Positions 8,085 to 42,911 of a stretch of DNA of 63,490 nucleotides are shown piece after piece. The stretch comes from Aequorivita vitellina. Lineage in GTDB: Bacteria > Bacteroidota > Bacteroidia > Flavobacteriales > Flavobacteriaceae. The stretch covers positions 1-63,490 of the forward strand of contig NZ_JAIRBA010000024.1 of NCBI RefSeq assembly GCF_022008365.1. The letters run 5' to 3'. The notes below the pieces were generated by a model. It saw only the letters and a program-made list of their open reading frames with translations. It was not told the DNA's origin and made no database searches. Position numbers and translations under genes: made by a program. Position 1 is the first letter of the stretch, and each line of letters opens with the position of its first letter.

Positions 8085-10020
8085 CTATACTCTAAACTCT
8101 AAATTCTAATAGCCCAGCAGTCTAGTTTCTAGCAGCGCAGCGATCTAGATTCTAATAGCGCAGCGGTCTAGACTCTATCAGCACAGCGATCTAGATTCTA
8201 ATAGCGCAGCGGTCTAGACTCTAGCAGCGCAGCGATCTAGATTCTAATAGCGCAGCGGTCTAGTCTCTTCGCTGAACAATACTGACATAACGCCATGCCC
8301 CAGCGGGGCAAAATATGGGTAGCCAAGAGCCCACCACGAAGCAAATGTCCCATAGGGACATAATATGTTTTTAATCGACCCATGTTAATTTAAAACCCTA
8401 ACCCTTCATCAACATCCCAGTCTATACTCTAGACTCTAGCAGCCCAGCGATCTAGATTCTAGCAGCGCAGCGATCTAGATTCTAATAGCGCAGCGGTCTA
8501 GACTCTTCGCTGAACAATACTGACCTAACGGCATACTGCCCCAACGGGGCAAAATATGGGTAGCCAAGAGCCCACCACGAAGCAAATGTCCCATAGGGAC
8601 ATAATATGTTTTTAATCGAACAATATTAATTTAAAGCCCTAACCCTTCATCTACATCCCAGTCTATACTCTAGACTCTAGCAGCCCAGCAGTCTAGTTTC
8701 TAGCAGCGCAGCGATCTAGATTCTAATAGCGCAGCGGTCTAGACTCTTCGCTGAACAATACTGACCTAACGACAAACTGCCCCAGCGGGGCAAAATATGG
8801 GTAGCCAAGAGCCCACCACGAAGCAAATGTTCCATAGGGACATAATATGTTTTTAATCGAACAATGTTAATTTAAAGTCCTAACCCTTCATCAACATCCC
8901 AGTCTATACTCTAGTCTCTATCAGCGCAGCGATCTAGTTTCTAGCAGCGCAGCGATCTAGATTCTAATAGCGCAGCGGTCTAGTCTCTTCCCTGAACAAT
9001 ACTGAACTAACGACAAACTGCCCCAGCGGGGCAAAATATTGGTAGCCAAGACATAATATGTTTATAATCTACCAATGTTAATTTAAAACCCTAACCCTTC
9101 ATCAACATCCCAGTCTATACTCTAGACTCTAGCAGCCCAGCAGTCTAGTTTCTAGCAGCGCAGCGATCTAGATTCTAATAGCGCAGCGGTCTAGTTTCTA
9201 TCAGCACAGCGGTCTAATCTCATCCCTCGACACAGGACTAGGAATTGACGGGTTTCTATTTTCTACCCAAATTAATACCTAACGACAAACTGCCCCAGCG
9301 GGGCAAAATATTGGTAGCCAAGAGTTCACCACAAAGCAAATGTCCCATAGGGACATAATATGTTTTTAATCGACCCATGTTAATTTAAAACCCTAACCCT
9401 TCATCTACATCCCAGTCTATACTCTAGACTCTAGCAGCCCAGCAGTCTAGCTTCTAGCAGCGCAGCGATCTAGATTCTAATAGCGCAGCGGTCTAGTCTC
9501 TTCGCTGAACAATACTGACCTAACGGCATACTGCCCCAGCGGGGCAAAATATTGGTAGCCAAGAGTCCACCACAAAGCAATTGTCCCGTAGGGACATAAT
9601 ATGTTTTTAATCGACCAATATTAATTTAAAGCCCTAACCCTTCATCAACATCCCAGTCTATACTCTAGTCTCTATCAGCGCAGCGGTCTAGGCTCTAATA
9701 GCGCAGCGGTCTAGTCTCTTCCCTGAACAATACTGAACTAACGACAAACTGCCCCAGCGGGGCAAAATATGGGTAGCCAAGAGCCCACCACGAAGCAATT
9801 GTCCCGTAGGGACATAATATGTTTTTAATCGAACCAATATTAATTTAAAGCCCTAACCCTTCATCTACATCCCAGTCTATACTCTAGTTTCCAGTAGCGC
9901 AGCGGTCTAGGCTCTAGCAGCGAAGCGATCTAGATTCTAATAGCGCAGCGGTCTATTTTCTATCAACACATCGATCTACTTTCCACAAATCCCAATTTAA
10001 AACCTTTAACCCTTCATCTA
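8085..10020. repeat. large tandem array, 241-bp period, built of hairpins and 23-bp sub-repeats
   Basis: Gene-free, between the divergently placed MATE gene and ppa. A first hairpin, TGCCCC-AGC-GGGGCA, starts at 8296, 8537, 8778, 9019, 9291, 9532 and 9750, giving spacings of 241, 241, 241, 272, 241 and 218 bp. About 35 bp after it most units carry a second hairpin, ATGTCCC-ATA-GGGACAT (8345-8361 in unit 1), changed to GTCCCGTAGGGAC in the last two units. Unit 4 has lost this hairpin; unit 5 carries an extra block near 9225-9285. Each unit then has CCTAACCCTTCATC and a run of 23-bp sub-repeats (GCGCAGCGATCTAGATTCTA and GCGCAGCGGTCTAGACTCTA variants). No protein, no spacer-like unique sequence. 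Confidence 0.93.
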
Positions 10021-26183: not shown

Positions 26184-26477
26184 ATGTCTAATAATAAAAA
26201 AAATTGGCCCCTTTGGGAAATATTTGTTCGCAGTAAAAATGGGCTCGAACACCGTCATTTTGGGAGTCTTCATGCTGCCGATGCCGAAATGGCCTTAGAA
26301 AACGCACGTGATGTTTACACGCGCCGAAATGAAGGTGTAAGCATTTGGGTGGTTGAAAGTAAAAACATCACTGCCTCCAATCCCGAACAAAATGGCGAAC
26401 TGTTTGAGCCGGCTCAAGATAAAGTTTACCGCCACCCTACATTTTACGATTTGCCCGATGAGGTGAAGCATATGTAA
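26184..26477 (+). CDS. paaB: phenylacetyl-CoA epoxidase subunit PaaB
   Basis: A 97-residue small structural subunit of the epoxidase complex. Characteristic text: WPLWEIFVRSKNGLEHRHFG at the start, then AADAEMALENARDVYTRRNE and a C-terminal KVYRHPTFYDLPDEVKHM. It is normal in length and has no catalytic residues of its own. A 20-bp palindrome begins 3 bp after the stop codon, marking the edge of the GIY-YIG insertion that separates it from paaC. Confidence 0.95.
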   Translation: MSNNKKNWPLWEIFVRSKNGLEHRHFGSLHAADAEMALENARDVYTRRNEGVSIWVVESKNITASNPEQNGELFEPAQDKVYRHPTFYDLPDEVKHM

Positions 26478-26480
26478 CAA

Positions 26481-26500
26481 ATTCCCGCGAAGGCGGGAAT
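26481..26500 (+). repeat. ATTCCC/GGGAAT palindrome, left type (copy 1)
   Basis: Perfect 8-bp arms ATTCCCGC/GCGGGAAT, loop GAAG, followed by CT on the inner side. It starts 3 bp after the paaB stop codon. Confidence 0.85.
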
Positions 26501-26538
26501 CTTATCAATTGGAATCTGAAATTCAATGTTAACGGAGA

Positions 26539-26874
26539 ATGAAAAATTGGTATGTATATATTATGTCTAATAAACCGAAAGGTGTAATTTACATTGGCGT
26601 AACAGATAATATTGATGCCCGGATTGAAGAACATAAAACAAAGGTTTTTCGTAATTCCTTCACGGCAAAATACAATTGTGATAAACTGGTTTATTTTGAA
26701 GAATTCAAAGAAGGTTCTATTGCTTCCCAACGGGAAAAACAAATGAAAAAGTGGAATCGGGAATGGAAAGTGAAATTAATAGAAGAAGTGAACCCTGGCT
26801 GGTTTGATTTAAGTCTAAACTGGAATAACGAAAATTTGATTTATAAAACAAACAGATTCCCCACTCGGGAATAA
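26539..26874 (+). CDS. small GIY-YIG nuclease
   Basis: A 111-residue single-domain GIY-YIG endonuclease. Visible motifs: YVYIMSNKPKGVIYIGVT (the two tyrosine-containing strands), the catalytic arginine in DARIEEHK, a conserved tyrosine in LVYFEEF and the metal-binding glutamate in ASQREKQMKKW, then a basic helix (NREWKVKLIEE). It looks fully intact. It has no partner in phenylacetate breakdown; it is flanked by inverted palindromes, and its last codons (NRFPTRE) are themselves palindrome sequence. The most economical role is a nuclease that spreads or maintains these elements, comparable in logic to homing nucleases, but this is inference. A decayed relative lies at 39308-39382. Confidence 0.9.
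   Translation: MKNWYVYIMSNKPKGVIYIGVTDNIDARIEEHKTKVFRNSFTAKYNCDKLVYFEEFKEGSIASQREKQMKKWNREWKVKLIEEVNPGWFDLSLNWNNENLIYKTNRFPTRE
26856..26872 (-). repeat. ATTCCC/GGGAAT palindrome, right type (copy 2)
   Basis: ATTCCC-CCACT-CGGGAAT with a shorter, atypical centre, preceded by AG on its inner side. It overlaps the last codons and the stop of the GIY-YIG gene and lies 13 bp before the paaC ATG. Confidence 0.7.
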
Positions 26875-26884
26875 ACATAAAAAT

Positions 26885-27655
26885 ATGAGTTTAACATCAG
26901 AAGATTCCCACCTTCGCGGGAATTACATCTTAACAATCGCAGACAACTCCCTAATTCTTGCACAACGCTTAGGGGAACTTTGCGGGCACGGCCCAATTCT
27001 GGAAACAGATATTGCATTAACAAATATTTCATTGGATTTACTAGGGCAAACCCGAAGTTACTATCAATATGCAGCGAAACTTGCGGGCGAAGGTAAAACC
27101 GAAGACGATATCGCTTTTTTAAGAATTGAAAGAGAATATAAAAACTGTTTGTTGGTGGAGCAACCCAATACACATTTTGGATATGTAATTGCTCGTCAGT
27201 TTCTGTTTGATGTGTATCATTTTATGCTGTTAGAAAAACTTCAAAATAGTGCCGATGAAACTTTGGTTGCTATAGCTAATAAAGGTATTAAGGAAGTAAG
27301 CTACCACAAACGATTTTCGGGAGATTGGGTTAAGCGTTTAGGCGATGGAACCGAAGAGAGTAACCAAAAAATGCAAGAAGCGATAAACGATCTATGGCGC
27401 TTTACAGACGAGCTTTTTTATATGACCGATGCCGAAAAAGCAATGGCAAAAGATGGAGCTGGGGTGGATGTTTCAACCTTTAAAGAAAAGTATTATGAAG
27501 AAGTTTCCGAAGTTCTAAAAGAAGCCACCTTAACTGTCCCTGAAAATAAATATTTCACAAAAGGTGGGAAAGAAGGGGTGCATACAGAGCATATGGGTTA
27601 TATATTGGCAGAACTTCAATATATGCAACGCACCTTTCCTAATATGCAATGGTAG
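26885..27655 (+). CDS. paaC: phenylacetyl-CoA epoxidase structural subunit PaaC
   Basis: A 256-residue ferritin-like partner of PaaA, required for a stable epoxidase but lacking the full iron site. Family text: NYILTIADNSLILAQRLGEL, LLGQTRSYYQYAAKLAG, EVSYHKRFSGDWVKRLGDGT, HTEHMGYILAELQYMQRTFP. The expected N-terminus would start close to NYILTIADN. The first 12 residues (MSLTSEDSHLRG) are not family sequence: DSHLRGN is the translation of the right-hand palindrome of the GIY-YIG module. The present start codon therefore lies inside or beside the inserted DNA. Confidence 0.95.
   Translation: MSLTSEDSHLRGNYILTIADNSLILAQRLGELCGHGPILETDIALTNISLDLLGQTRSYYQYAAKLAGEGKTEDDIAFLRIEREYKNCLLVEQPNTHFGYVIARQFLFDVYHFMLLEKLQNSADETLVAIANKGIKEVSYHKRFSGDWVKRLGDGTEESNQKMQEAINDLWRFTDELFYMTDAEKAMAKDGAGVDVSTFKEKYYEEVSEVLKEATLTVPENKYFTKGGKEGVHTEHMGYILAELQYMQRTFPNMQW
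26904..26923 (-). repeat. ATTCCC/GGGAAT palindrome, right type (copy 3), in paaC
   Basis: ATTCCCAC-CTTC-GCGGGAAT with one arm mismatch, loop CTTC (the complement of the left-type GAAG) and inner flank AG. It is read in frame as residues 7-13 of PaaC. Confidence 0.85.
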
Positions 27656-31756: not shown

Positions 31757-32968
31757 ATGGAAGCATATATTATTGACGGAATTAGAACTCCAATAGGAAA
31801 TTACCACGGTGCCCTTAGCACAGTAAGAACAGATGATTTAGCAGCTTTGGTAATAGCTGAAATAGTAAAAAGAAATCCAAATATCCCGAAAGAAGCATAT
31901 GACGATGTTATTTTGGGTTGTGCAAACCAAGCGGGCGAAGACAACCGAAATGTAGCGCGTATGGCAGCCCTCTTGGCGGGACTGCCGGTAACAGTTCCGG
32001 GCGAGACGGTAAACCGTCTTTGCAGTAGCGGACTCTCGGCGATTATACACGCCAATCGTGCTATTAAAGCAGGGGATGGAGATTTATTTATTTCAGGGGG
32101 AGTTGAAAATATGACGCGCGGCCCCTACGTGGTTGCAAAACCTTCGAAAGCTTTTGGTAACGATGCTAAAATGTACGATTCAAGTTTCGGGTGGCGTTTT
32201 GTAAACCCCAAAATGGACCAAATGTACGGTACCGATGGCATGGGAAATACTGCCGAAAATCTCGTTGAAAAATATAATATTTCGCGAGAAGATCAAGATA
32301 AGTTTGCACTTTGGAGTCAGCAAAAAGCTTCAAAAGCTCAGGAAAATGGAAGGTTGGCAAAAGAAATTGTAACTGTAGAAATTCCGCAGCGAAAAAAAGA
32401 TCCTATTCTATTTTCAAAAGATGAATTTATAAAACCTTCAACCACTTTAGAAGTTTTAGGAAAGCTTAGACCTGCTTTTAAACGCGAAGGTGGAAGTGTA
32501 ACCGCAGGAAATTCTTCGGGGTTGAATGATGGTGCTGCTGCTACAATTATTGCTTCAGAAGAGGCGGTGAATAAATATAATTTAAAGCCATTGGCAAGAA
32601 TTGTAAGTTCGGCAGTGGTAGGGGTAGAACCAAGAATTATGGGTATTGGCCCTGTAGAAGCTTCGAATAAAGCATTGCAAAAAGCAGGTTTAACAATGGA
32701 TGATATGGATATTATTGAACTTAATGAAGCTTTTGCGGCACAGGCTTTGGCTTGTACGCGCGCTTGGGGATTAAAAGATGACGATCCAAGATTAAACCCT
32801 AACGGGGGCGCAATTGCTATTGGTCATCCATTAGGGGTTACGGGTACACGAACGGCGCTTTCGGCAGCAATTGAATTACACGAGCAAAATAAACGCTATG
32901 CCTTAGTAACAATGTGTATTGGTGTGGGGCAAGGTTATGCCGCAATAATTGAACGAATTCCTGCGTAG
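31757..32968 (+). CDS. paaJ: 3-oxoadipyl-CoA / 3-oxo-5,6-dehydrosuberyl-CoA thiolase
   Basis: A 403-residue thiolase closing the pathway by releasing acetyl-CoA and succinyl-CoA. The acyl-accepting cysteine is in RLCSSGLSAI, the catalytic histidine in GGAIAIGHPLGVTGTR and the second cysteine in TMCIGVGQG. DELNEAF-type text (IIELNEAFAAQALAC) is present. The protein ends ERIPA: the last residues and the TAG stop are formed by a left-type ATTCCT palindrome (32957-32976), so the original C-terminus was slightly changed. Assignment to paaJ rests on operon context; other degradative thiolases are similar. Confidence 0.92.
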   Translation: MEAYIIDGIRTPIGNYHGALSTVRTDDLAALVIAEIVKRNPNIPKEAYDDVILGCANQAGEDNRNVARMAALLAGLPVTVPGETVNRLCSSGLSAIIHANRAIKAGDGDLFISGGVENMTRGPYVVAKPSKAFGNDAKMYDSSFGWRFVNPKMDQMYGTDGMGNTAENLVEKYNISREDQDKFALWSQQKASKAQENGRLAKEIVTVEIPQRKKDPILFSKDEFIKPSTTLEVLGKLRPAFKREGGSVTAGNSSGLNDGAAATIIASEEAVNKYNLKPLARIVSSAVVGVEPRIMGIGPVEASNKALQKAGLTMDDMDIIELNEAFAAQALACTRAWGLKDDDPRLNPNGGAIAIGHPLGVTGTRTALSAAIELHEQNKRYALVTMCIGVGQGYAAIIERIPA

Positions 32969-32976
32969 GTAGGAAT
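32957..32976 (+). repeat. ATTCCT/AGGAAT palindrome, left type (copy 4), ends paaJ
   Basis: ATTCCTGC-GTAG-GTAGGAAT with one G/T mismatch and inner flank CT. The paaJ stop codon (TAG, 32966-32968) lies in its loop. I found no matching right-type partner nearby, so it may be a solo end. Confidence 0.75.
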
Positions 32977-33149: not shown

Positions 33150-33395
33150 ATGGCAACATTCACTTCTTCATTACCAGACGACCTTCTCGAAGATCTTTCG
33201 AAAAAGGCTAAAGAGCTTAAAATGCCTAAAAACAAAATTTTAGAAAAAGCTCTTAAAATTTATTTAGAACAATTGGACAAGGCAGCATATTTAAAAAGCT
33301 ATAGGAAAATGGCCAATGACCCAGATATGCTTGCTATGGCCGAAGAAGGGATGGCAGACTATTTCAAACAGTTAGAAGATTTGGAAGCAGAATGA
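33150..33395 (+). CDS. ribbon-helix-helix antitoxin
   Basis: An 81-residue protein with the CopG/RHH pattern at its N-terminus: one strand (ATFTSSLPDDLLEDL) then two helices (KKAKELKMPKNKILEKALKIYLE). The acidic C-terminus (MAEEGMADYFKQLEDLEAE) suits toxin binding. Its stop overlaps the start of the MazF-like gene by 4 bp (ATGA), so the pair is translationally coupled. It lies between paaJ and paaZ. Confidence 0.85.
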   Translation: MATFTSSLPDDLLEDLSKKAKELKMPKNKILEKALKIYLEQLDKAAYLKSYRKMANDPDMLAMAEEGMADYFKQLEDLEAE

Positions 33396-33724
33396 AACAA
33401 GGTGAAATTTGGGAAGTATTCTTTGACCCAGTTTTGGGAAGTGAACAAGCCGGAAGACGTCCAGCATTAATCGTTTCTGGAAATTTGGCAAATAATAATT
33501 TGAAAACGATTATTGCATGCCCTCTAACTTCGAAACTAAAAAACTACCATGGCAATTTAATTCTGAAACCATCTGTTACTAATGGATTATCAAAAACATC
33601 GGAAGTTATGATTATCCATATTCGTTCCTTATCACAAGAACGATTTTTGAAAAAGATGGGTTCTATTTCAAAGTCTGACTTTAATATTGTAAAAGATGGA
33701 CTTAATAAAATTATAAAATATTGA
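33392..33724 (+). CDS. MazF/PemK-family toxin
   Basis: A 110-residue predicted ribosome-independent mRNA interferase. Typical start KQGEIWEVFFDPVLGSEQAG with RRPALIVSG, then IACPLTSKLKNYHGNLIL and VMIIHIRSLSQERF, matching the MazF beta-barrel. All core segments are present, so it is likely active. It starts within the antitoxin stop codon and ends 6 bp before the paaZ ATG, placing a toxin-antitoxin unit tightly inside a catabolic operon. Confidence 0.88.
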   Translation: MKQGEIWEVFFDPVLGSEQAGRRPALIVSGNLANNNLKTIIACPLTSKLKNYHGNLILKPSVTNGLSKTSEVMIIHIRSLSQERFLKKMGSISKSDFNIVKDGLNKIIKY

Positions 33725-39146: not shown

Positions 39147-39175
39147 CAGGAATTTAAAATGCCCAAGATGGGTGA
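39147..39175 (+). repeat. 29-bp direct repeat, left copy
   Basis: Identical over 29 bp to 39443-39471; the sequence encodes QEFKMPKMG of the E2 N-terminus. Together the two copies flank the inserted module, as a target-site duplication would. Confidence 0.9.
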
Positions 39176-39178
39176 AAT

Positions 39179-39198
39179 ATTCCTGCGTAGGCAGGAAT
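39179..39198 (+). repeat. ATTCCT/AGGAAT palindrome, left type (copy 5)
   Basis: Perfect 8-bp arms ATTCCTGC/GCAGGAAT, loop GTAG, inner flank CT. Compared with copy 1, two arm positions have changed together. Confidence 0.85.
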
Positions 39199-39307
39199 CT
39201 CAGAGCCGAAATAGAATTCTAAAAAGTCGAGAGTTGTAAATTGGAAGATTATAAGTATTTGGTATTTCTTTTTTATGATAAATTATCCCTACGAGGATTC
39301 GTATGAT

Positions 39308-39382
39308 TGGAAAAGAGAGAAAAAAATTAATTTAACAGAATATATGAGCTCTAGTTAGTCTGATTTAAGCTCAAACTGGAAT
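39308..39382 (+). pseudogene. remnant of a GIY-YIG nuclease gene
   Basis: Translation WKREKKINLTEYMSSS-stop-SDLSSNWN aligns with WNREWKVKLIEEVNPGWFDL and then SLNWN of the intact nuclease (about 12 of 25 identical, the Trp codon TGG replaced by TAG at 39356-39358). Downstream of the stop the same frame runs on into the E2 start. The catalytic part is missing. Confidence 0.7.
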
Positions 39383-39412
39383 CAATATTTTAATAAACAT
39401 ATAAACTTAGCG

Positions 39413-40741
39413 ATGAGTGATGACAAAAGATTCCTGCCTTCGCAGGAATTTAAAATGCCCAAGATGGGTGAGAGTATTACCGAAGGAACCATCATTGAAT
39501 GGCACGTAAAGGTGGGAGATACTTTTGAAGAAGGCGATGTGCTTTTAGAAGTGGCCACAGATAAAGTTGATAACGAAGTGCCAGCACCTGCATCGGGAAA
39601 AATGGTGGCGCAAAAATTCAATAATGGCGATGTAGTGCCCGTTGGCGAAGTGATTGCAATTCTAGATATTTCAGAAAGTGGCAGTTCCATAAAAACTGCT
39701 TCAAAAACTAAGGAAACGAAGGAAAAATCGAAGATTTCAACCTCATCTTCAACTTTATCTTCAACTTCGACTTCATCTTCAACTTTGTCTTCAGTTCAAA
39801 AATCATTTAAGGTAAATGAAAACCTTTTTATTTCGCCATTGGTTGATAGTATGGCGCGAAAAAATCATATTAGTTATGAAGAATTGGCTCGAATTCCGGG
39901 CACTGGCAAGGATGGGCGTTTACGCAAAAGTGATGTTTCCGATTATTTAAAAAAGGGTCGCCCCTTTCAGTTTGCTCAAGCTGTACCCGAAGTTTCCGGA
40001 TTTCAAGTTCCCGATTTAAAATTCGACAAAGGCAAGGGGAAAATTGTAGAAATGGATCGTATGCGTCAAATGATTTCAGACCATATGGTTTTTTCAAAAC
40101 ACAACTCGCCCCACGTTACTGCTTATGTTGAAGCAGACCTTACCGATATGGTGAATTGGCGAAATAATAACAAAGCCGAATTTCAGAAAAGATATAATGA
40201 AAAACTCACTTTCACACCTCTTTTTATTGAATGTGTGGCAAAGGCTATCGAGGATTTTCCGATGATTAATTCTTCTCTTGATGGTAAAAACATTATTGTA
40301 AAAGATGAAATTAATATTGGAATGGCTACGGCACTTCCTTCGGGAAATTTGATCGTGCCCGTGGTTAAAAACGCCGATAAAAAGAATTTAAATGAATTGG
40401 CTTCTGCTACTAATATTCTGGTTGAAAAAGCTCGAAATAATAAATTAAAAGCAGATGATACCAAAGACAGTACTTTTACCATAAGCAATGTTGGTACCTT
40501 TGGAAGTTTAATGGGTACGCCCATAATAAATCAGCCGGAAGCCGCGATTTTAGCCACCGGAATTATTAAAAAACGCGCCGAAGTTATGGAGCGGGAGGAT
40601 GGCGACACCATTGAAATACGCCAAATGATGTATCTTTCTCTTTCTTTCGACCATCGAATTGTTGATGGCTATTTGGCTGGATCTTTTTTAAGAAGAATTG
40701 CCGATTATATGGAACAGTTTGATACCAAAAGAAAAGTCTAA
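39413..40741 (+). CDS. 2-oxo acid dehydrogenase E2 component (dihydrolipoamide acyltransferase)
   Basis: 442 residues. The lipoyl domain (about 14-90) has the lipoylated lysine in EVATDKVDNEV; a Ser/Thr-rich linker (about 105-135, from TCATCTTCAACT-like DNA repeats) follows; then a peripheral-subunit-binding domain (SPLVDSMARKNHISYEELAR) and the acyltransferase core ending SFDHRIVDGYLAG with the catalytic histidine. Paired with the fused E1 just downstream, it most likely belongs to a branched-chain oxo-acid dehydrogenase. Residues 1-12 (MSDDKRFLPSQE) derive from an inserted palindrome module; the natural start is stranded at 39138. Confidence 0.93.
   Translation: MSDDKRFLPSQEFKMPKMGESITEGTIIEWHVKVGDTFEEGDVLLEVATDKVDNEVPAPASGKMVAQKFNNGDVVPVGEVIAILDISESGSSIKTASKTKETKEKSKISTSSSTLSSTSTSSSTLSSVQKSFKVNENLFISPLVDSMARKNHISYEELARIPGTGKDGRLRKSDVSDYLKKGRPFQFAQAVPEVSGFQVPDLKFDKGKGKIVEMDRMRQMISDHMVFSKHNSPHVTAYVEADLTDMVNWRNNNKAEFQKRYNEKLTFTPLFIECVAKAIEDFPMINSSLDGKNIIVKDEINIGMATALPSGNLIVPVVKNADKKNLNELASATNILVEKARNNKLKADDTKDSTFTISNVGTFGSLMGTPIINQPEAAILATGIIKKRAEVMEREDGDTIEIRQMMYLSLSFDHRIVDGYLAGSFLRRIADYMEQFDTKRKV
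39430..39449 (-). repeat. ATTCCT/AGGAAT palindrome, right type (copy 6), in the E2 gene
   Basis: Perfect arms ATTCCTGC/GCAGGAAT with loop CTTC and inner flank AG. Read in frame as residues 6-13 of the E2 protein. Confidence 0.85.
39443..39471 (+). repeat. 29-bp direct repeat, right copy
   Basis: Identical to 39147-39175. Its first seven bases also form part of the right-hand palindrome. Confidence 0.9.
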
Positions 40742-40766: not shown

Positions 40767-42911
40767 GTGAAAAAAATAGATAAATCCATACTGAAAAAAG
40801 CCTTTAAAAACCTCGTTACCGCAAAGTCGATGACAGAGATTTATGAGGAAAATTTTAAAACAGTTTCAAAATATGTACACGCAACTTCGCGTGGGCACGA
40901 AGTAATTCAGATAGCGGCTGGGATGCAACTTTTGCCGCAAGATTATGTTTTTCCATATTATCGAGACGACTCTATTTTACTGTCCATTGGAATGACACCT
41001 TATGAATTAATGCTGCAAGTTTTAGCAAAAAAAGACGATCCATTTTCGGGTGGGCGTACCTATTATTCGCACGCCAGTTTAAACGATGTCGATAAGCCAA
41101 AAATTCCGCATCAAAGTTCGGCTACGGGTATGCAAGCCATTCCAGCTACAGGAGTTGCAATGGGATTCCATTACCGCGAAGGCGGTAATCTCTTTGACGA
41201 AGAGCAACTCCGAAAGGAATCAAAAACCAAAAATTCAAAGAATACGTTACTTTATGATTCGTCGGTTCACTCGAAAGATTCCCGCCTTCGCGGGAATGCG
41301 CCAATTGTAATCTGTAGTCTGGGCGATGCATCGGTGACCGAAGGAGAAGTAGCCGAAGCCTTTCAGATGGCCGTTTTAAAAAAATTGCCAATCCTTTATT
41401 TAGTTCAAGATAATGGTTGGGATATTTCGGCAAATGCTGAAGAAACCAGAGCTCAAGACGCATATGAGTATACCAAAGGTTTTAAGGGTTTGGAGGCAAT
41501 TTCTATTGACGGAACCAATTTTGAGGAAAGTTATAACACGCTTCAAGATGTAATTTCAAAAATTAGAACCGAAAGAAGACCTTTTTTGGTGCACGCAAAA
41601 GTGCCACTTTTAAATCATCATACTTCGGGGGTTCGAATGGAGTTTTATCGCGACGATTTAGATGAGGCGCGTAGTCGAGACCCGTATCCTAAGCTTAAAA
41701 AACTTTTAGCTGAAAATGGTTTTTCTGAAAGCGATATTTCAGAAATTGAAAATAGTGCTAAAAAAGAGGTTTCTGAAAGTTTAGAAAAAGCACTAAAAGC
41801 CGAAGATCCCAAACCCGAAGATTTATTCACCCACGATTTTGCACCCACTGAAATTACCGAAGAAGTTGGGGAACGAAGTCCTGCTGGAGCAGAAAAAGTT
41901 GTGATGGTAGATTGTGCACTTTTTGCTATTGAAGAGTTGATGGCAAAACATAAAGAATGTCTGTTATACGGGCAAGATGTAGGAAGAAGGTTAGGCGGTG
42001 TATTTAGAGAAGCTGCGACTTTAGCCGAAAAATTTGGTGATAATCGCGTTTTTAATACGCCAATTCAAGAAGCATTTATTGTTGGAAGCACTGTAGGGAT
42101 GAGTGCTGTTGGGCTAAAACCAATTGTTGAGGTGCAATTTGCAGATTATATTTGGCCAGGCCTAAACCAGCTTTTTACTGAAGTTAGCCGAAGCTGTTAT
42201 CTTTCTGAAGGAAAATGGCCGGTTTCCATGGTCTTACGCGTGCCTATTGGCGCTTATGGTAGCGGTGGGCCGTATCATTCTTCTTCGGTAGAAAGTGTAG
42301 TTACAAACATTCGCGGGTTAAAGATTGCTTACCCAAGTAATGGCGCCGATTTAAAAGGCTTGATGAAAGCTGCTTATTACGACCCCAATCCGGTGGTGAT
42401 TTTTGAACATAAAGGTCTGTATTGGAGCAAAGTGAAAGGAACAAAAGGCGCAACCTCTGTAATGCCTTCGGAGGATTATATTTTACCTTTCGGAAAAGCT
42501 TGGGTTTTACAGGAAATCTGGAAACAGGAAAATGAAGAAACCCTTTCAATAATCACGTACGGAATGGGTGTACATTGGGCGATGAATGCTTCCGAAGAAC
42601 TTGGAATGCAAGATAGAATTGAAGTTGTAGATTTAAGAACCTTACATCCTTTAGATTATGAAACGGTATTTAAATCGGTTAAAAAATGTGGTAAATGTTT
42701 GGTGGTAACTGAAGAACCTTCAGAAAATGGTTTTTCAAGAGGTTTGCAGGGAAGAATTCAAGAGGAGTGTTTTCAGCAATTAGATGCCCCAGTGATGTTA
42801 ATTGGTTCTGAAAATATGCCAGCTATTCCATTGAACTCAATTTTAGAAGAAACAATGATTCCTTCAACCGAAAAAGTGAAAAAGAAAATTCTTGAAATGC
42901 TAAATTATTAA
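40767..42911 (+). CDS. 2-oxo acid dehydrogenase E1, fused alpha and beta subunits
   Basis: A 714-residue thiamine-diphosphate enzyme; GTG start 25 bp after E2. The alpha half has the ThDP motif (CSLGDASVTEGE ... VQDNGWDISANAEETRAQ). The beta half (from about residue 370) has GQDVGRRLGGVFREA, FNTPIQEAFIVGSTVGM and the C-terminal transketolase domain. Fusion of alpha and beta is common for this enzyme in Bacteroidota; branched-chain oxo-acids are the likely substrates. Residues about 135-177 are an extra 40-odd-residue stretch between GVAMGFHYRE and APIVICSLGD, made of two inverted palindromes and 88 bp between them. The frame is intact, so the enzyme may tolerate the insert as a surface loop. 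Confidence 0.93.
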   Translation: MKKIDKSILKKAFKNLVTAKSMTEIYEENFKTVSKYVHATSRGHEVIQIAAGMQLLPQDYVFPYYRDDSILLSIGMTPYELMLQVLAKKDDPFSGGRTYYSHASLNDVDKPKIPHQSSATGMQAIPATGVAMGFHYREGGNLFDEEQLRKESKTKNSKNTLLYDSSVHSKDSRLRGNAPIVICSLGDASVTEGEVAEAFQMAVLKKLPILYLVQDNGWDISANAEETRAQDAYEYTKGFKGLEAISIDGTNFEESYNTLQDVISKIRTERRPFLVHAKVPLLNHHTSGVRMEFYRDDLDEARSRDPYPKLKKLLAENGFSESDISEIENSAKKEVSESLEKALKAEDPKPEDLFTHDFAPTEITEEVGERSPAGAEKVVMVDCALFAIEELMAKHKECLLYGQDVGRRLGGVFREAATLAEKFGDNRVFNTPIQEAFIVGSTVGMSAVGLKPIVEVQFADYIWPGLNQLFTEVSRSCYLSEGKWPVSMVLRVPIGAYGSGGPYHSSSVESVVTNIRGLKIAYPSNGADLKGLMKAAYYDPNPVVIFEHKGLYWSKVKGTKGATSVMPSEDYILPFGKAWVLQEIWKQENEETLSIITYGMGVHWAMNASEELGMQDRIEVVDLRTLHPLDYETVFKSVKKCGKCLVVTEEPSENGFSRGLQGRIQEECFQQLDAPVMLIGSENMPAIPLNSILEETMIPSTEKVKKKILEMLNY
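41170..41189 (+). repeat. ATTACC/GGTAAT palindrome, left type (copy 7)
   Basis: Arms ATTACCGC/GCGGTAAT; the C-to-A change in one arm is matched by G-to-T in the other. Loop GAAG. Confidence 0.85.
41278..41297 (-). repeat. ATTCCC/GGGAAT palindrome, right type (copy 8)
   Basis: Perfect ATTCCCGC-CTTC-GCGGGAAT, the exact reverse complement of copy 1. Confidence 0.9.

Follow-up and report, generated by a model that had tools for sequence, protein, structure and literature searches.

A gene for a small GIY-YIG nuclease lies between paaB and paaC of Aequorivita vitellina, with a palindrome on each side in opposite orientation. The locus raises the questions of whether the gene and the palindromes move together and of which enzyme spreads the palindromes. 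We analyzed it within a stretch of 63,490 nucleotides, termed the window below, and compared it with close relatives, with genomes of the same class (Bacteroidia), and with genomes of other phyla. The features of the locus are the following.

26184-26477 (+): paaB, the upstream host gene (TIGR02157, E = 3.4e-45)
26481-26500 (+): left REP, CGTC-1-like in sequence, with an 8-bp stem, a GAAG loop, and a CTT tail directed at the nuclease gene
26539-26874 (+): gene of the GIY-YIG nuclease (PF01541; invariant columns), a single domain in the AlphaFold2 model
26885-27655 (+): paaC with an N-terminal extension that crosses the right REP; the best stretch of the TIGR02158 match covers residues 18 to 256
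26904-26923 (-): right REP, the inverted copy, within the paaC reading frame, where it encodes ..DSHLRGN..

The nuclease module and its palindromes

The ORF between paaB and paaC encodes 111 amino acids and matches Pfam family PF01541 (E = 7.6e-16), and the left REP begins 3 nt after the paaB stop codon. The left (ATTCCCGCGAAGGCGGGAAT) and right (ATTCCCACCTTCGCGGGAAT) REPs lie in 24-nt inverted arms that are 96% complementary, in agreement with the initial annotation, which had described inverted palindromes bounding the gene. It had also placed an intact nuclease gene exactly between the two host genes; the gene is intact, but the right palindrome is not intergenic, since it is part of the paaC frame. 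In relatives devoid of the module, paaC starts just ahead of LYNYIL. The left REP is predicted to form a DNA hairpin of -8.7 kcal/mol (z = -3.9), and in the predicted fold of the entire module the two ends pair with each other (z = -4.4). Judged by ORF length, no transposase-sized ORF is present in the 443-bp module, which is also overlapped by antisense ORFs of 101 and 110 amino acids. A classical IS or DDE transposon was rejected on this ground and because the length of the target duplications described below is variable, from 22 to 49 bp. A reading as structured RNA was discarded as well, as the single Rfam match scored well under the gathering score.

Residues Y7, Y18, G20, R28, H32, E66, and N85 of the protein were invariant in both alignments. 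An AlphaFold2 model based on 25 sequences had a mean pLDDT of 86 and consisted of one domain with a low-confidence tail from residue 96; a poor model from a single sequence (pLDDT 69.7) was set aside. In a sequence-profile comparison, UPF0213 proteins (PDB 1zg2 and 1ywl) are the nearest relatives with a solved structure. Foldseek also placed 1zg2 first, followed by Slx1, a branched-DNA nuclease, at probabilities of 0.92 to 1 and weak E-values (0.003 for 1zg2 and 0.03 to 0.4 for Slx1, none at or below 0.001). The Pfam match, the invariant residues, and the model together identify a GIY-YIG fold with the catalytic residues in place. The dN/dS ratios were 0.06 to 0.29 in six pairs of nuclease genes, three further pairs being saturated, so that in the window's clade the nuclease evolves under purifying selection; one of the 14 genes in this set (L127) has an internal stop. 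The free-standing Seg enzymes and I-TevI, which are self-spreading homing endonucleases, are small GIY-YIG nucleases like the window protein. The cleavage positions of I-TevI lie 23 and 25 nt away from where it inserts, which resembles the 23- to 27-bp duplication at the E2 gene described below and may be a coincidence. Unlike these enzymes, the window protein is a single domain, a separate DNA-binding domain being absent from the model, and proteins of its type are REP bounded, are dispersed to unrelated sites, and gave no match at E <= 1e-5 in 50,697 phage records. A phage-borne homing gene was ruled out on the basis of that search.

When up to 2 mismatches are allowed, the window contains 8 copies of the palindrome ATTCCC-N8-GGGAAT, compared with 3.04 (standard deviation, 1.63) expected, and 8 or more copies were seen in 0 of 100 shuffles. 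The genome of the window (G000) holds 10 exact copies. On the strand that carries the purine-type loop (GAAG, GCAG, or GGAG), CTY follows the palindrome in 9 of these 10, which gives the repeat a direction, from stem-loop to tail; the inner flanks CT and AG pointed out in the initial annotation are thus part of a conserved tail. Six folded stretches that cover four of the window palindromes were each predicted to form a stable DNA hairpin (-5.4 to -9.2 kcal/mol). Other GIY-YIG genes of this genome (contigs C141, C152, C88, and C77) are less than 1 kb from contig ends, as would follow from an assembly broken at repeat families, and those on C141 and C152 lie amid other repeats. Two unrelated observations concern the window itself: a separate small repeat, the hairpin ATGTCCCATAGGGACAT, is present in three copies (8345-8361, 8586-8602, and 9340-9356), and two neighboring small ORFs at 33150-33724 resemble, on visual inspection, a toxin-antitoxin pair of the ribbon-helix-helix/PemK-like kind.

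Di Nocera et al. (2013; PMC3733652) described a CGTC-1 REP family, with which we compared the window repeat. Neisseria dRS3 and Rickettsia conorii RPE-6 belong to this family, and the CGTC superfamily includes dRS3, RPE-4 and RPE-6 of R. conorii, and many alphaproteobacterial repeats. The paper states that REPs are frequently transcribed and located 3' of ORFs, that CGTC REPs flank no tyrosine transposase gene, that associations with other transposases are only fortuitous, and that a dedicated transposase is apparently absent. The window REPs resemble CGTC-1 in (i) the 8-bp stem, 4-nt loop, and 20-nt palindrome, (ii) the A-T pairs at the first two stem positions, and (iii) the occurrence of opposite-orientation dimers and in-frame insertions within genes. 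They differ in that the terminal CGTC/TGTC/CCTC tag is absent, and the tail, CTY in 9 of the 10 exact copies, seems to differ from CCA. CCA-like tails are present in REPs of several other taxa, and the CGTC-type tag in REPs of relatives (e.g., L033, from the family of the window) and of seven alpha-, beta-, and gammaproteobacterial records. Another difference is that a GIY-YIG gene is flanked here, whereas Di Nocera et al. saw CGTC-1 REPs flanking no transposase gene. By these sequence features, the window repeat would be an untagged, CGTC-1-like REP that works like a CGTC REP but falls short of full membership. The initial annotation regarded the link between palindrome and nuclease as outside textbook knowledge. 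The palindrome itself falls under a known REP superfamily, but our literature search, which did not extend to bioRxiv, retrieved no paper connecting GIY-YIG nucleases with REPs.

REPs beside GIY-YIG genes in many phyla

A scan of one genome per species (84,980 species) yielded at least 567 relatives of the nuclease, of which the best 80, not a random sample, were analyzed. An inverted repeat (score >= 14) joined the 300-bp flanks at 55 of 79 loci (one of the best 80 was too short), compared with 9 of 544 offset positions and 5 of 91 neighboring genes flanked on each side by 60 bp or more of intergenic DNA (Fisher p = 1e-19). Tagged REPs on both sides were found at 43 of these 79 loci and at 8 of the 91 matched genes. 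Tagged hairpins within 400 bp were present on both sides, on one side, and on neither side at 44, 14, and 22 of these best 80 loci, respectively; the corresponding numbers for 408 offset positions were 18, 78, and 312. Within 300 bp of the genes in this best-80 set, GTC-tagged hairpins with the tag outward reached 2.46 (left) and 2.18 (right) per kb and those with the tag inward 1.21 and 1.15 per kb, whereas densities farther out were 0.05 to 0.43 per kb per orientation, a roughly tenfold peak. The nearest tagged REP pointed its tag outward more often than inward (36:15 for the left side, 40:11 for the right), and REP pairs spanning the gene were tag-outward in 37 of 59 cases, again among the best 80 loci. 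Either sign, inverted repeat or tagged hairpins, was present at 65 of these 80 loci, among them loci of Bacteroidota, Pseudomonadota, Fibrobacterota, Myxococcota, Spirochaetota, Nitrospirota, and candidate phyla; the remaining 15, including the sole betaproteobacterial locus, showed neither.

Narrower samples gave a similar picture. Among 247 genomes drawn evenly from the Bacteroidia, 84 had the GIY-YIG gene at E <= 1e-18. The best loci of this sample, the window's left out, had a spanning repeat in 17 of 29 cases, compared with 0 of 54 offsets (p = 1.8e-8); one of the 29 (L237), on what looks like a contaminant contig, was kept in the count. Palindromes thus stand far more often beside these GIY-YIG genes than beside others, as the proposal in the initial annotation entailed. 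Among the window's genome and its close relatives, 16 of 33 GIY-YIG loci but 1 of 29 paaC genes had a spanning repeat; at 15 of 30 loci of the relatives, no tagged hairpin or ATTCC palindrome lay within 400 bp, several of them having longer imperfect repeats. The correlation between the gene and the tagged pattern across the class sample was modest: of 15 genomes with the pattern, 10 had the gene, compared with 74 of 232 without it (p = 0.0096), the other 5 REP-positive genomes having no match at E <= 1e-18. REPs in genomes where the gene is not detected are thus common, which counts against the nuclease as their source. Genome G018 has 8 palindromes and no GIY-YIG match at E <= 1e-5, and G033 has 23 palindromes, close copies of the gene that are all broken, and one intact distant copy. 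A tblastn search of plasmid records matched 33, of which 9 were examined. Tagged hairpins stood on both sides of the gene in seven of these 9 (Neisseria gonorrhoeae, with dRS3; Sinorhizobium meliloti; N. aromaticivorans; A. lipoferum; Sphingobium; Shinella; and Aeromonas) and on one side only in a Photobacterium record, and a Planktothrix record had imperfect TGTCATTCTGAG repeats on both sides. The association of REPs with both flanks of GIY-YIG genes therefore extends across phyla.

Three loci were of interest in themselves. In the Planktothrix agardhii plasmid (L121), the gene with its TGTCATTCTGAG repeats has a type IIL restriction gene on one side and the DISARM gene drmA on the other. Five tandem GIY-YIG genes, spaced by about 357 to 519 bp, are present at G002:C1:1928167-1929994, which suggests amplification of a module. 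At L199:4500-5790, three GIY-YIG-like stretches occur in a row, the outer two near-identical over 274 bp and the middle one with a stop codon in the matched frame.

The type of REP follows the phylogeny of the nuclease. On a tree of 105 proteins, 64 tips could be labeled, by a rule of our own, with the loop of the nearest REP, 41 unlabeled or of other types being omitted, and loop type required 13 changes, compared with 19.5 for shuffled labels (minimum of 2,000 shuffles, 15). By eye, among the relatives, the ATTCC type stands beside L027 to L031 and L033, the TGTCAATGCGG type beside L043 and L048, and the TGTCAGGTCGAG type beside L053 to L055; the repeats of L048, L054, and L055 form no scoring inverted pair across the gene (8.0 to 12.5). 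Shared descent could account for part of this match.

Insertion of the module as a unit

The initial annotation reported two further modules with the same ends in the window, one with a decayed nuclease gene and one with no gene. Both exist: the former (39179-39449) sits at the start of the E2 acyltransferase gene, and the latter (41170-41297), in which no GIY-YIG gene is detectable, is an in-frame part of the E1 dehydrogenase gene, a correction to the initial annotation. The features, together with a solitary REP, are as follows.

32957-32976 (no strand assigned): solitary imperfect REP, spanning the stop codon of ORF 31757-32968
39150-39175 (+): left copy of the duplicated E2 target, 26 bp, identical to 39446-39471; relatives have an empty site
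39179-39198 (+): left REP of the decayed E2 module, from the palindrome search
39308-39382 (+): decayed GIY-YIG C terminus, 25 amino acids, 64% identical to the intact protein of relative G027 (E = 2.7e-9)
39430-39449 (-): right REP of the decayed E2 module, its terminal GAAT overlapping the target copy
39446-39471 (+): right copy of the duplicated E2 target, after which the E2 coding sequence runs on
41170-41189 (+): left REP of the gene-less pair, in frame within the E1 gene
41278-41297 (-): right REP of the gene-less pair, encoding KDSRLRGN

The tail of the decayed module is 75% identical over 146 bp to that of G027. An insert of the REP-pair type was present in 3 of 27 genomes read at E1 (G000, G009, and G006), the others having a shorter segment.

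The E2 site captures several states of the module. In G006, G024, G022, G010, G011, and G005, the E2 gene has a simple junction and no insert. In G020 (L030), an intact REP-nuclease-REP module is flanked by 27-bp target copies that are identical at 26 of 27 positions including GAAT (23 bp without GAAT), and the window's genome shows the same layout with a decayed gene and identical 26-bp copies. Both insertions occurred directly after a native GAAT that overlaps the REP end. The intact module of G027 at this site is devoid of the left target copy, and G026 has a single REP. The pattern of autonomous, decayed, and non-autonomous versions proposed in the initial annotation is thus borne out by intact, decayed, and empty states at one site of one genus and by the REP-only pair in E1. 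The E2-site modules are scattered on the paaC + E2 tree, which fits repeated gain or repeated loss.

Target duplications were also found elsewhere. In L125, a Flavobacterium metagenome-assembled genome (MAG), a module in the E2 gene has an exact 48-bp duplication; in L149, a Lacinutrix MAG, a 49-bp near-identical duplication lies outside the tagged REPs and was read as the 3' end of a gene; and in L132 and L133 (Winogradskyella), an older REP forms part of the long direct repeats of the E2-site modules. Of 81 modules selected because they had a scoring inverted repeat, 11 showed an outer direct repeat with a score of at least 13, compared with 0.14% of 6,480 mismatched pairs. On reading these 11, four were target-like, namely, L125, L149, L030 (G020), and L181 (22 bp), and the other seven involved REP arrays or repeat interiors. 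Target duplications are real but are seen in a minority of modules. The REP-nuclease-REP module behaves as an insertion unit, with target duplications of 22 to 49 bp in four clean cases. As a separate observation, seven loci (L206, L209, L211, L215, L221, L222, and L225) have another inverted REP-like pair, CCCCGAGCGCAGTCG.. and ..CGACTGCGCTCAG.., upstream of E2.

The order paaB-nuclease-paaC is not fixed, another point on which the initial proposal depended. We inspected 30 paaC loci, 29 of which hold both paaB and paaC. These fall into four groups: (i) three with a GIY-YIG ORF (G000, G022, and G009), that of G022 having an internal deletion of about 20 residues; (ii) two with remnants, a decayed gene in G027 and a lone REP in G008; (iii) 10 with a short junction of 29 to 141 bp, the shortest being that of G035; and (iv) 14 with an unrelated gene of the 23S_rRNA_IVP type (four-helix bundle), two of them truncated (L060 to L064, L066 to L068, L071 to L073, L075, L081, and L085), an assignment that was confirmed with PF05635 for two and made by likeness of sequence for the others. 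Most of these IVP genes have inverted repeats of their own at the ends of the slot (AAATCGAAATCGAAATC.. or GGCATTAGG..), with no visible transposase, and form a second small-gene module. The junction is a generic landing slot. Since it is permissive for several small-gene modules, the choice of slot need not reflect targeting by the nuclease, and site-specific targeting of paaB-paaC was dropped. Insertions probably survive at gene junctions and N termini because the module can keep the reading frame open and can provide a start codon; such permissive slots explain the position of the insertions without nuclease targeting.

Competing explanations and a possible mechanism

We regard the locus as a REP-bounded mobile module whose GIY-YIG nuclease is most likely the spreading enzyme of CGTC-type REPs, as RAYT, an HUH transposase, is for GTAG-type REPs (probability, about 0.62). 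The main alternative is that the REPs spread by other means and a homing-type GIY-YIG nuclease invades their clusters, using pre-existing REP pairs as target and homology arms. Arrays at or near GIY-YIG genes do hold many REPs with no intervening gene (L116 and L124), the patchy occupancy of the E2 site on the paaC + E2 tree looks like homing, and REPs are reportedly known landing sites for IS elements. However, the units that entered a non-REP target in G020, L125, and L149 include both REPs, with the duplication outside, and these loci and the other examples named above have a whole palindrome on each side instead of split REP halves. These modules argue against homing into REPs, although they are few; the correspondence between REP type and nuclease clade also speaks against it, and we consider it unlikely.

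Still less probable is that an unrelated transposase, such as a RAYT, moves both REPs and modules, with the nuclease as cargo. The window's genome has two strong Y1_Tnp genes, G033 with its many palindromes has 14 Y1_Tnp matches, and a RAYT-like gene of N. gonorrhoeae has a dRS3 pair on one side. Y1_Tnp matches were found in 29 of 59 relatives. At the 29 control loci (of 31 chosen, two at contig ends being skipped), ATTCC palindromes lay within 400 bp of 0 of 29 Y1_Tnp (RAYT-type) genes, and GTC-started hairpins stood on both sides of one, with another sequence. On the basis of these 29 loci, RAYT was rejected as the driver of these palindromes. In addition, Y1_Tnp matches at E <= 0.001 are absent from ten palindrome-bearing relatives (G003, G006, G007, G010, G017, G018, G020, G024, G029, and G035), and the lack of tyrosine transposase genes flanked by CGTC REPs reported in PMC3733652 points the same way. 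Finally, the nuclease could be a host repair enzyme and the REPs retained terminators or mRNA stabilizers, with no mobility involved. The transcription and 3' location of REPs stated in that source and the purifying selection seen in the window's clade would suit such a role. The target duplications and the existence of empty, filled, and decayed sites already contradict a view free of mobility, and several copies of the gene in some genomes and its limitation to 84 of 247 class genomes at E <= 1e-18 also argue against it, so that we give it very little credence.

The best reading is a REPtron-like system with a GIY-YIG enzyme, for which the association and the insertion as a unit were documented above and the catalysis is what we infer. 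As in the REPtron/REPIN-RAYT system, whose HUH transposase resembles those of IS200/IS605 elements, REPs flank an enzyme gene, REP pairs and lone REPs occur as non-autonomous copies, and enzyme and REP covary. The systems differ in that the enzyme has a GIY-YIG fold rather than that of an HUH/Y1 transposase and in that the REP tag is not GTAG. Furthermore, window-type modules have target duplications of about 22 to 49 bp in some cases, whereas IS200/IS605 elements are not known to leave any. The architecture, the Slx1-like fold of the model, and the variable duplications suggest a mechanism, nuclease based as the initial annotation had expected of a mobile system with no transposase, in which (i) a REP hairpin would be extruded in single-stranded or cruciform DNA and bound by the nuclease, (ii) the nuclease would cut at the foot of the hairpin and nick the target, beside GAAT at the E2 site, (iii) the staggered nicks would be filled in by repair synthesis, giving a duplication of variable length, and (iv) loss of the nuclease gene would leave REP pairs and lone REPs behind.

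In broader terms, the modules may represent a new class of transposable elements, present in many phyla, whose sole protein is a GIY-YIG nuclease of about 100 residues that acts on hairpin ends. Such elements would insert through target nicking and repair, with neither transposase nor reverse transcriptase. They would have given rise to the CGTC REPs, among them dRS3 and the RPE-type insertions that create new protein segments; we see about even odds for this generalization. The 2013 paper (PMC3733652) treats the CGTC REPs as a superfamily with no known enzyme. A candidate enzyme can now be named, which makes the origin of CGTC REPs directly testable. If this proposal is true, a common gene annotated as "GIY-YIG nuclease family protein" would gain a function, and bacteria would have a minimal route for writing hairpins and short peptides into genes.
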